Part shown: positions 12,128-55,947 of the stretch, piece by piece | Layout of the letters: the number at the start of each line of letters is the position of its first letter | Numbering within the stretch: position 1 is the first letter of the stretch | DNA from: Blattabacterium sp. DPU | Lineage (GTDB): Bacteria > Bacteroidota > Bacteroidia > Flavobacteriales > Blattabacteriaceae | Length of the DNA: 64,000 nt | Direction: 5' to 3' | Assembly: GCF_011290385.1 (NCBI RefSeq) | Contig: NZ_CP049785.1 | Span: forward strand, 473,018 to 537,017 | Program-made: the position numbers and the translations under genes | Notes under the pieces: model-generated | Told to the model about the DNA's origin: nothing | The model's input: the letters and a program-made list of their open reading frames with translations, nothing else | Databases searched by the model: none

Positions 12128-12757
12128 ATGATGAAATCTAGATCATTAAAAATAAAAGTATGTGGAATAAAACTTGATCTACAAAAAATTTTTGATTCTT
12201 TTCCCGATTTTGTCGGTTTTATATTTTATCCTAATTCTCCTAGATTTGTCGGTTTCGATTTTGTTATCCCAAAATTTGAAAAAAAAATATCGAAAATAGG
12301 TGTTTTTGTAAACGAATCAGAAAAAAACATATTTAAAATAAAAGAAAAAAATAAATTAGACTTTATTCAATTACATGGAACAGAAAGTTCTGTGTTTTGT
12401 GAAAAACTATTCAAAAAAGGATTAAAATTAATTAAGGCTTTTAGAATCGATGATTTATTCTCCTTTGAAAAAATTACAGATTATATTCCTTTTTGTACTT
12501 ATTTTTTATTTGATAGTAATACAATTTATTATGGAGGAAGCGGTAAAAAATTTTGTTGGAAAAAACTTCATGAATACACTTTTCAAGTTCCATTTTTTTT
12601 AAGTGGAGGAATAGGAATACAAGATTTCGATCAAATCAAAAATTTTTCACATTCTAAAATGTTTGGAATAGATATTAATAGCAAATTTGAAATTTTTCCA
12701 GGAAAAAAAGACATCATAAAATTAAATTCCTTTATAAAAAAAATAAAAGAACTATGA
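12128..12757 (+). CDS. trpF: Phosphoribosylanthranilate isomerase
   Basis: TrpF performs the Amadori rearrangement of phosphoribosylanthranilate, the step before TrpC. KVCGI at residues 10-14 carries the general-base Cys, FIFYPNSPR follows near 31-39, and IQLHG and FLSGGIG are the later barrel motifs. At 209 residues it is a normal stand-alone enzyme. Its stop overlaps the trpB start (ATGA). Confidence 0.96.
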   Translation: MMKSRSLKIKVCGIKLDLQKIFDSFPDFVGFIFYPNSPRFVGFDFVIPKFEKKISKIGVFVNESEKNIFKIKEKNKLDFIQLHGTESSVFCEKLFKKGLKLIKAFRIDDLFSFEKITDYIPFCTYFLFDSNTIYYGGSGKKFCWKKLHEYTFQVPFFLSGGIGIQDFDQIKNFSHSKMFGIDINSKFEIFPGKKDIIKLNSFIKKIKEL

Positions 12758-13956
12758 AATATTTTGTAGATAAAAATGGATATTATGGAGAATTTGGAGG
12801 AGCTTTTATTCCTGAAATGTTACATTACAACATCATAGAAATAGAACATAAATATAAAGAACTTATCACAAGTGATGAATATCAGAAATTGTATAAAAAA
12901 TTACTAAAAAATTATGTAGGAAGACCTACTCCTTTATATTTTTGTAAAAAATATTCTGATCAATATAATGCTAGAATTTATCTTAAAAGAGAAGATCTCA
13001 ATTATACAGGATCACATAAAATTAATAATGCTATAGGTCAAGCTTTATTGGCTAAAAAACTAGAAAAAAAAAAAGTTATAGCAGAAACAGGTGCAGGACA
13101 ACATGGAGTTGCTACAGCTACTATTTGTGCATTAATGCATTTAGAATGTATAATTTTTATGGGAGAAAAAGATATACAACGTCAGTATAGTAATGTCATC
13201 AGAATGAAATCTCTTGGGGCAGAAGTGAATCCAGTTTTAAGTGGAGATAAAACACTAAAAGATGCGGTAAATGAAGCTATCCGTTATTGGATAAATCATC
13301 CAGAAAGTTATTATTTAATGGGGTCTACAGTAGGTCCTCATCCTTATCCTCAAATGGTAGCAGATATTCAATCTATTATTAGTGAGGAAATTAAAACACA
13401 ATTGAGAAAAATTGAGGGTCATCCTGATCCAAATTATGTAATAGCTTGCATAGGGGGAGGAAGTAATGCGGCAGGATCTTTCTATCATTTTTTGGATAAT
13501 GATTCTGTAACCCTTGTAGCTGTAGAAGCGGCTGGATTAGGTCTTACAACCAAAAAAACAGCGGCGTCTATTCATTGTGGTACTAAAGGAATATTGCATG
13601 GAAGTATGACATTTGTTTTACAAGATAAAGATGGCCAAGTTATTCCTGCTTATTCTATATCTCCGGGATTAGACTATCCAGGAATTGGACCAATGTTTGC
13701 CAATCTTTTTGTAAAAAAACGTGTAAATTTTTTGTCTTCTACAGATGAAGAAGCTTTACTAGCGGGGTATGAATTAACTCGATTAGAAGGAATCATTCCT
13801 GCTTTAGAAAGTGCTCATGCATTAGCTGCATTAAAAAAAATTCCTTTTCAAAAAGAAGATGTAGTAGTGATCACTTTGTCTGGAAGAGGAGATAAAGATA
13901 TTAATGTTTACAATAAATTTTTTTTAAAATTATCAAATAATGAATCAAATACATAA
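12754..13956 (+). CDS. trpB: Tryptophan synthase beta chain
   Basis: TrpB condenses indole with serine using PLP. The Schiff-base lysine is K89 in TGSHKINNA. The PLP phosphate loop GGGSNA and the TGAGQHG segment are intact. At 400 residues, the sequence is strongly conserved compared with its neighbours. The end overlaps trpA by 17 bases. The serine substrate can be made locally, since serC lies just downstream on the other strand. Confidence 0.98.
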   Translation: MKYFVDKNGYYGEFGGAFIPEMLHYNIIEIEHKYKELITSDEYQKLYKKLLKNYVGRPTPLYFCKKYSDQYNARIYLKREDLNYTGSHKINNAIGQALLAKKLEKKKVIAETGAGQHGVATATICALMHLECIIFMGEKDIQRQYSNVIRMKSLGAEVNPVLSGDKTLKDAVNEAIRYWINHPESYYLMGSTVGPHPYPQMVADIQSIISEEIKTQLRKIEGHPDPNYVIACIGGGSNAAGSFYHFLDNDSVTLVAVEAAGLGLTTKKTAASIHCGTKGILHGSMTFVLQDKDGQVIPAYSISPGLDYPGIGPMFANLFVKKRVNFLSSTDEEALLAGYELTRLEGIIPALESAHALAALKKIPFQKEDVVVITLSGRGDKDINVYNKFFLKLSNNESNT

Positions 13957-53125: not shown

Positions 53126-53944
53126 GTGAATAAATTAAAATTAGAAATAGATAAAGCTTGGAATAATAAAAATGTATGGGAAACTGATAAAAATATAAAA
53201 AATATAGTAATTCAGGTTATTAATCTTATAGAAGAAGGTTCAATCAGAGTATCAAATTATTTTCATGGAAAATGGATAATCAACGAATGGATTAAAAAGG
53301 CTATTATTATGTATTTTTCTGTTCAAAATATGAATACAATAGAATTAGGTCCATTAGAATTTTATGATAAAATTCCTATTAAAAATAAGTTTAAAAAAAA
53401 AGGAGTTCGTGTTGTACCTCATGCTATAGCACGTTATGGTTCGTATATATCACCGGGTGTTATCCTTATGCCTTCTTATGTAAATATAGGAGCATACATA
53501 GGTAAAAATACAATGATAGATACATGGGCAACAGTGGGTAGCTGTGCTCAAATTGGAAATGGAGTCCATGTAAGTGGAGGAGTAGGAATAGGAGGAGTTT
53601 TAGAACCTTTACAAGCTAACCCAGTTATTATTGAAAATGATGTTTTTATTGGATCTAGATGCATTTTAGTGGAAGGCGTTTTGATAAAAAAAAGTGCTGT
53701 TTTAGGAGCGAATGTAGTTATTACTTCTTCTACTAAAATTTTTGATGTAACCCATGAAAAACCTGTAGAAATAAAAGGAGTGGTTCCCGAGTATTCTGTA
53801 GTTATCCCTGGATCTTATCCAAAAAAATTCCCTTCAGGTATATATCATGTTCCATGTGCAATGATTATAGGAAAAAGAAAAGAAAGTACAAATAAAAAAG
53901 TATCTTTAAATGATGCATTGAGAACTCATAATTTAGCAATTTAA
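53126..53944 (+). CDS. dapD: Tetrahydrodipicolinate N-succinyltransferase
   Basis: DapD succinylates tetrahydrodipicolinate on the succinylase route to meso-DAP and lysine. The C-terminal left-handed beta-helix shows hexapeptide repeats (about residues 105-235; RYGSYISPGVILMPSYVNIGAYIG, SCAQIGNGVHVSGGVGIGG, VFIGSRCILVEGV). An ATG at 53072 would add a hydrophobic stretch foreign to the family. I therefore choose the GTG at 53126 (272 residues), which matches the usual 270-275 residues. The tsaC start follows immediately. Confidence 0.93.
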   Translation: MNKLKLEIDKAWNNKNVWETDKNIKNIVIQVINLIEEGSIRVSNYFHGKWIINEWIKKAIIMYFSVQNMNTIELGPLEFYDKIPIKNKFKKKGVRVVPHAIARYGSYISPGVILMPSYVNIGAYIGKNTMIDTWATVGSCAQIGNGVHVSGGVGIGGVLEPLQANPVIIENDVFIGSRCILVEGVLIKKSAVLGANVVITSSTKIFDVTHEKPVEIKGVVPEYSVVIPGSYPKKFPSGIYHVPCAMIIGKRKESTNKKVSLNDALRTHNLAI

Positions 53945-54522
53945 ATGTCTTTTTACGAAGAAATAGAAAAAGGTGTAGATATATTAAAAAAAGGAAAAAA
54001 CTTATTATATCCTACAGATACTGTATGGGGTTTGGGATGTGATGCGTATAATATACAAGCTATAAGAAAAATATGTGAAATAAAAAATAGAAGTATTTCA
54101 AAACCCATGATTGTTCTAGTGGAAAGTATGGATCGTTTGCATCAATTAGTAGGAGAAGTTTCTTTTTTCACTAAAAGGATAATTAGTGATAATCTTGTCA
54201 AAAAAAAAAACCTGTTACTGTAATATACGAAAATACTAAAAAAATAGCATCTAATTTTTTTAGTAAAGATAATACTTTAGCTGTTCGCTTGACAAATGAT
54301 CCTTTTTGTATTTATTTGATTCGATATTTGGATAGACCTATCATTTCTACTTCCGCTAATTTATCAGGATTTGTTACTCCTAAATCTTTTTCAGAAATTA
54401 GTTCTTATATTTTAAAAAAAACAGATTATATTGTCAATTTTCGTAGAGAAGAAAAAGCTAAATACAATAGTTCTTCTATTATAAAAATTGTGTCCCATAA
54501 AATCAAAATATTACGGATATAG
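53945..54522 (+). pseudogene. tsaC: Threonylcarbamoyl-AMP synthase (YrdC/Sua5 family), frameshifted in an A11 tract
   Basis: The product would make threonylcarbamoyl-AMP for the essential t6A37 modification of ANN-decoding tRNAs. The first 84 residues are good YrdC sequence (LLYPTDTVWGLGCDAYN, NRSISKPMIVLV). At 54200-54210 there are eleven A, and the frame then runs into TAA at 54221-54223. The family sequence continues in another frame from CCT at 54211 (PVTVIYENTKK...LAVRLTNDPF...RPIISTSANLSG) to TAG at 54522. One extra A or two fewer A would restore about 192 residues. No other lesion is seen. Polymerase slippage on poly(A), documented in other insect endosymbionts, could make some functional protein; a sequencing error is also possible. 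Confidence 0.88.
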
Positions 54523-54528
54523 ATTAAC

Positions 54529-55947
54529 ATGAATTTGTCATCTGCTGTCCATCAAGAAATTTTTCGTATTATAAGTATTTCTGCTCAAAAAATAAAACAA
54601 AATAGTTATGTTATAGGAGGTTATGTAAGAGATTTTTTATTAGGAATTATGAATTCTAAAGATTTAGATATTTTAACTATAGGAGAAGGGATAAAGTTAG
54701 CTCAAGAGGTCTCTAAATATATGATTCCTTTTCCTAAAATAATAATATTTAAACGTTTTGGAACAGCTATGTTAAAATATAACAATCAAAAAATTGAATT
54801 TGTAGGATCTAGAAAAGAATCTTATCATTTTTATAGTAGAAAACCTATTATAGAATTAGGATCATTGCAAGATGATCAAAAAAGAAGAGATTTTACAATC
54901 AATGCTTTAGCTATTAGTTTAAATCATAACAATTATGGAGAATTAATAGATCCATTTGGAGGTTTCATGGATTTAAAAAAAAAAATATTAAGAACCCCAT
55001 TAGATGCAAATATAACTTATTCTGATGATCCATTACGAATGATGCGAGCTATACGATTTGCCACTCAACTGCAATTTGAGATTGAAAAAGATTCGTTTCA
55101 ATCAATTCAAAAAAATAAGGATAGAATAAATATTGTTTCTATAGAAAGAATTATGGAAGAATTTAATAAAATTCTTTTGTCTGAAAAACCTTCTATTGGA
55201 TTGTTTTTATTATATGAATCTGGATTATTGTCAATTATATTACCGGAATTAGTTTCGTTAAAAGGAATAGAAAAAAAAAATGGATATAAACATAAAGATA
55301 ATTTTTATCATACTTTACAAGTAGTAGATAATATTAGTAAAGAAAAAAATAGTTCTCTTTGGTTAAGATGGGTGGCATTACTTCACGATATAGGAAAGAC
55401 TTCTACTAAGAAATTTTTTCCTAAAATAGGATGGTCTTTTCATGATCATGAATTTGTAGGATCCAAAATGGTTATAAATATATTTCAACGTTTAAAGCTT
55501 CCAAAAGGTTCTTATATGAAATATGTTCAAAAAATGATTCTATACAGTTATAGACCTATTGCATTAATAGGAAATCATCCTCGTGATTCTGCTATACGTA
55601 GATTATTATTTGACATAGGAAATGATTTAGAAGATTTAATGAAATTATGTATTGCTGATATTACTACTAATAATATAGAAAAAAAAAATCAATATAAAAA
55701 AAATATTTTTACTCTTATAGAAAGAATTAGAAAGTTAGAAGCAAAAGATAAGATCAAAAATTGGAAATCTCCTATATCAGGAAATGATATAATGAAGACT
55801 TTTCATATCGATCCATGTAGAAAAATAGGAATCATAAAAGATTTTGTTAAAGATTCTATATTAGAAGGAAAAATATCTAATAATTTTCATTCTGCTTATT
55901 TACTAATGTTAAAAAAAGGAGAAGAATTGGGATTAAAAAAAAAATAA
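54529..55947 (+). CDS. cca: CCA-adding tRNA nucleotidyltransferase with HD domain
   Basis: This enzyme adds or repairs the 3' CCA of tRNAs, needed here because tRNA-Lys is encoded without CCA. The nucleotidyltransferase head has GGYVRDFLLG and KDLDI (metal Asp), then RRDFTINALAI and DPLRMMRAIRFATQL. A C-terminal HD domain (about 255-370) has LLHDIGK. At 472 residues it is the long HD-containing form common in Bacteroidetes. nrnA follows after 6 bases. Confidence 0.94.
   Translation: MNLSSAVHQEIFRIISISAQKIKQNSYVIGGYVRDFLLGIMNSKDLDILTIGEGIKLAQEVSKYMIPFPKIIIFKRFGTAMLKYNNQKIEFVGSRKESYHFYSRKPIIELGSLQDDQKRRDFTINALAISLNHNNYGELIDPFGGFMDLKKKILRTPLDANITYSDDPLRMMRAIRFATQLQFEIEKDSFQSIQKNKDRINIVSIERIMEEFNKILLSEKPSIGLFLLYESGLLSIILPELVSLKGIEKKNGYKHKDNFYHTLQVVDNISKEKNSSLWLRWVALLHDIGKTSTKKFFPKIGWSFHDHEFVGSKMVINIFQRLKLPKGSYMKYVQKMILYSYRPIALIGNHPRDSAIRRLLFDIGNDLEDLMKLCIADITTNNIEKKNQYKKNIFTLIERIRKLEAKDKIKNWKSPISGNDIMKTFHIDPCRKIGIIKDFVKDSILEGKISNNFHSAYLLMLKKGEELGLKKK

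Follow-up and report, generated by a model that had tools for sequence, protein, structure and literature searches.

A one-base frame break at an eleven-adenine run in tsaC of Blattabacterium sp. DPU, a candidate for rescue by RNA polymerase slippage

The tRNA-modification gene tsaC, which is normally essential, was examined in a stretch of 64,000 nt (C1:473018-537017, the window) of the 623,008-base genome of Blattabacterium sp. DPU, designated G000. The gene was recognised by its match to TIGR00057/PF01300, starts with the ATG at 53945 and lies between two intact genes (Table 1). Its reading frame is lost at a run of adenines, just past which the zero frame meets a TAA stop (54221-54223), and the remainder of the protein is encoded in another frame. 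Together, the two halves span TIGR00057 and PF01300, the latter as two separate matches (profile 70-176 and 2-71), and each half alone scores below the curated TIGR00057 cut-off. The whole-domain match to TsaC (YrdC, L-threonylcarbamoyladenylate synthase) is thus provided by both halves jointly, and a single open DNA frame for the protein is absent in this genome. To keep the frame, the run would need one more A or two fewer, so its phase calls for +1 or -2 nt. The original prediction of a YrdC gene broken within this run, reparable by adding one A or losing two and free of other damage, was confirmed on each count: the run length is exact, both halves match the same family separately, and no second lesion was found in either of them, the 3' part (54211-54522) being devoid of stops and further indels. 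This combination of a single indel in a homopolymer of at least about 9 nt with an otherwise intact gene is the one by which candidates for slippage rescue are recognised. The 92-aa product of the 5' part should not work alone, as judged from the sequence, because the motifs PTDTVWGLG and STSANLSG sit in the 5' and 3' halves, respectively. Re-initiation of the 3' half was considered and rejected, the first usual in-frame start being a TTG at 54289 that would lose 26 conserved residues.

Table 1. Positions of tsaC, its surroundings and the other genes broken at A runs in G000 (positions in the window unless preceded by G000)
Feature	Position	Strand	Remarks
dapD-like gene	53126-53944	+	directly upstream of tsaC, intact; start codon uncertain, name from sequence
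tsaC 5' part	53945-54223	+	ATG ORF, 92 aa, YrdC in frame up to the A run; TIGR00057 profile 9-84, E 5e-20
A11 run in tsaC	54200-54210	+	exactly 11 A; reading frame lost here
A_AAA_AAC heptamer	54205-54211	+	zero frame; a -1 slip would enter the downstream frame at CCT
tsaC 3' part	54211-54522	+	other frame, from CCT, 54211-54519 = 103 codons, then TAG 54520-54522; TIGR00057 profile 90-189, E 1.4e-15
AU-rich hairpin	54234-54265	+	23 nt downstream of the A11 run, z -1.8
cca/pcnB-like gene	54529-55947	+	just downstream of tsaC, intact; name from sequence
nadE	G000:8724		split at A12
addB-like gene	G000:143262		split at A11
mvaK (mevalonate kinase)	G000:C1:154500-155900		split at A10
prmC	G000:394928		split at A12
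rnpA (RNase P protein)	G000:C1 about 575700-575940		split at A10

The length of the run is in itself common, since the genome contains 62 A/T runs of at least 11. The window contains 23 A/T runs of at least 10; conserved ORFs are touched by 22 of these, and the tsaC run is the only one to break a frame. The cca/pcnB-like gene, which keeps its own A11 run (54975-54985) in frame, offers a control next door. All 22 long runs in window ORFs consist of A on the sense strand (lysine codons) and none of T. A run of 79 T in the G010 assembly (C1:280605) is possibly an artefact. Genome-wide, at least six conserved genes of G000 are broken at A10-A12 runs (tsaC, nadE, prmC, addB, mvaK and rnpA). This census covers runs of at least 11 from genome stretches and runs of 10 only within sampled stretches, and the A10 breaks of mvaK and rnpA came to light only via other genomes. 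Two further frame switches, at G000:28003 and 150006, proved to be adjacent genes.

Breaks at A10-A13 runs affect nadE, prmC, addB, mvaK and rnpA. The same A12 splits nadE in four genomes (G000, G013, G028 and G035), in opposition to an in-frame A13 in G036 and G002, and the prmC run also breaks the frame in G007 and G015, with an in-frame A13 in G045, G013 and G020. Both genes are absent or decayed in some relatives, and both are missing from G030, which means that gene loss, too, can begin with a poly-A break. In 14 genomes read directly, mvaK is split at A10 or A11, always in a single phase; open-frame length adds three more genomes (17 of 49). The break is common to the sister group G029/G005/G031, and both members of the pairs G022/G034 and G016/G017 are split. 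Between split sisters, omega of the C-terminal half is 0.25-0.34, with Fisher p values from 2e-3 to 3e-7; that of the N-terminal half is mostly 0.09-0.27, G016/G017 being uninformative for the latter. This purifying selection beyond the break shows that mvaK, at least, evolved as a functional gene in its split state.

The RNase P protein is normally essential as well. Of the 33 genomes read, 23 have its gene, rnpA, out of frame at an A10 or A11 run, 14 in one phase and 9 in the other. The two halves are free of other lesions in the split genomes. Since its omega is higher than that of mvaK (0.2-0.9) and based on few sites, rnpA argues mainly through this absence of other damage, and it may be regarded as a stronger candidate than tsaC for long-standing rescue. 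The distribution of its phases also corrected an initial picture in which 13 of 13 breaks were one base short, as would have fitted insertion-type slippage; this apparent rule was overturned by rnpA and by a second gene of G010. In the latter genome, a second conserved gene, ~410 aa long and homologous to window 12691-13953, loses its frame near an A8 run (C1 about 204070-204120).

These data bear on whether the tsaC break is real. It is rather unlikely that A11 is a one-base call or assembly error, or the called majority of a run that varies within the symbiont population, with a working copy in frame. The lone lesion of tsaC does sit exactly at a long homopolymer, and in G000, for which the census is most complete, most breaks lack a single base, a pattern that undercalling would produce. 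However, about 42 other CDS runs of at least 11 in the same genome are in frame, and breaks in other genomes cluster in the same few genes (6 of 11 versus 2 of 38 runs, Fisher p 7e-4; it was G000 that first drew attention to these genes, and its runs are not part of the count). Random miscalling would not concentrate breaks in this way. In addition, the rnpA split recurs in independently published genomes such as G047 (Nauphoeta) and G044 (Mastotermes). Gross assembly error is likewise unlikely as a general cause, because other lineages have breaks at the same sites and the C-terminal half of mvaK is under purifying selection.

At the level of the genus, tsaC is present in all 49 Blattabacterium genomes and whole in 47. 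Only G000 and G010 carry a split copy, at the same place and in the same phase, the A15 run of G010 needing the same shift as the A11 of G000. In relatives, the A's of the lysine stretch at that site are usually interrupted by G or T, e.g. AAAAAAGATAAA, with no A run longer than 10. Since the gene is intact in G032, the nearest relative of G000 in the tree (weak support), and in G040, the sister of G010 (full support), the two splits represent independent events. All 49 genomes retain TsaB and TsaD as well, which together with the universal retention of tsaC indicates that the t6A pathway is in use. For TsaE, no match above cut-off was obtained with PF02367 in the 49 genomes or with TIGR00150 in G000, and t6A synthesis in the genus apparently runs without this usual ATPase partner.

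It may then be asked whether tsaC has just been inactivated, as a very young pseudogene in a lineage where t6A is dispensable or being lost. It is known that gene erosion can begin with indels in poly-A (PMC3017870), the fate of nadE and prmC in some relatives offers a parallel, and TsaE is already gone from the genus. We nonetheless hold this to be unlikely, as tsaC has been lost in none of the 49 genomes, TsaB and TsaD are intact in G000, and tsaC itself exhibits neither a second lesion nor acceleration. Between G000 and G022, omega is 0.26 for the 5' part and 0.21 for the 3' part, i.e. in the upper half of, yet inside, the 5-95% range of 0.08-0.32 for 61 window genes. The terminal-branch share of the G000 3' part ranks 24 of 49; the G000/G022 branch ratio of the 5' part is at the 98th percentile of genes, this part being short and located 5' of the lesion. 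The 3' part of G010 has the highest relative terminal branch among the 49, a hint that it is somewhat accelerated. Thus, tsaC of G000 evolves at a normal rate with no decay, and its break may be of low age; for this reason its rates cannot demonstrate rescue. Being confined to one lineage per event, the break is maybe too young for selection to show.

If the gene is in use, its message could be corrected either when it is translated or when it is transcribed. A -1 ribosomal frameshift on A_AAA_AAC within the run would produce full-length TsaC from unaltered mRNA. In tsaC, the heptamer has the required frame, the same context is found in prmC, mvaK and the tsaC of G010, and such a shift would fit tsaC, nadE, prmC and mvaK. 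Mammalian ribosomes slip on this sequence, and those of E. coli do so less readily (PMC5009743). Several observations nevertheless make this mechanism quite unlikely. It would be of no help to the 14 rnpA genes whose phase a -1 shift cannot mend, and breaks occur at runs of 9-15 A, just one of them at 9, though 7 nt would be enough. Stimulators of programmed -1 frameshifting are spaced 5-9 nt downstream of the slip site. Folding revealed no stimulatory structure at that distance from the tsaC heptamer, and the sole fold, an AU-rich hairpin, is too distant and too weak to be convincing (Table 1). A more speculative extension, to which we give very little credence, is that the shift would be part of a feedback. 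TsaC would make t6A on the tRNAs that decode AAA and AAC in its own run; when TsaC is low, under-modified tRNA-Lys and tRNA-Asn would slip more at A_AAA_AAC, so that more full-length enzyme is made and its level recovers. In this scenario, the broken frame would act as an accidental autoregulator reached independently in two lineages in the same phase, which seems highly improbable. Loss of the yeast homologue SUA5/TCS2 is known to raise both +1 and -1 frameshifting (PMC4717488).

RNA polymerase slippage covers all the breaks best, because it depends on run length, changes length in both directions and can serve both phases of rnpA. We consider it reasonably probable that the tsaC run is genuinely one base short and that slippage yields enough full-length TsaC for t6A synthesis. 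Slipping in the A11 run, the polymerase would generate transcripts that differ in length; those that gained one A or lost two would encode the full-length protein, in amounts sufficient for t6A synthesis. Slippage at this run, its efficiency and the sufficiency of its product are the parts of the explanation that we infer. More generally, the occurrence in related genomes of the same type of break in conserved genes still evolving as functional ones suggests that the cell probably mends the messages of broken genes while they are copied or read. Slippage rescue is plausible in the genus and better supported at that level than for tsaC. The proposal of tsaC as a slippage-rescue candidate is therefore upheld in part: breaks of conserved genes across the genus, shared by sisters, and purifying selection on mvaK speak for it, but this support is not tsaC-specific and the phase also fits -1 ribosomal frameshifting.

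The precedent invoked by the original prediction, slippage rescue in other insect endosymbionts, has a similarly mixed standing. Rescue has been measured for some genes of Buchnera and Blochmannia, with 12-50% of corrected transcripts (Tamas 2008, as summarised by Atkins et al., PMC5009743), but a transcriptome-wide study of Buchnera observed no transcription error restoring a frame (PMC5574713). In the same study, errors in A/T runs were mostly one-base insertions (151 of 157 insertions in runs, versus 16 deletions), i.e. the dominant change is the one that the tsaC phase needs.

A poly-A break with possible rescue is an already known type, of which tsaC in Blattabacterium would be a further case. 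The rescued frameshifts of Buchnera and Blochmannia (Tamas et al. 2008; Wernegreen et al. 2010; as cited in PMC3017870 and PMC5009743) likewise concern AT-rich insect endosymbionts and, according to these citing accounts, share one indel within a coding stretch of about 10-12 A, an otherwise intact gene and, for some breaks, presence in relatives with maintained selection. As described there, however, these hosts of the phenomenon are Gammaproteobacteria whose transcripts were sequenced, whereas tsaC belongs to a symbiont of the Bacteroidota and is known from DNA alone. Closer in taxonomy, homopolymer frameshifts were reported in Walczuchella, a scale-insect symbiont of the Flavobacteriales, a related order of symbionts, and its authors noted that the genes may still work (PMC3971599); unlike in Blattabacterium, this was a mere remark, with neither recurrent sites nor a selection test. 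Finally, a long coding A run also yields mixed products in bacterial dnaX-type slippage, which, however, is programmed and delivers two useful products, while the zero-frame product of tsaC is truncated and presumably useless.

Pseudogenes annotated in Blattabacterium include metG, gltX, dnaN and mvaK (PMC6039017). If rescue is true, genes so annotated may function, and gene-loss counts for these symbionts would be inflated. Besides, with tsaC, nadE, prmC, mvaK and rnpA repeatedly broken at the same runs, the roughly 49 genomes of the genus would constitute a natural experiment on how much transcription error can be tolerated.
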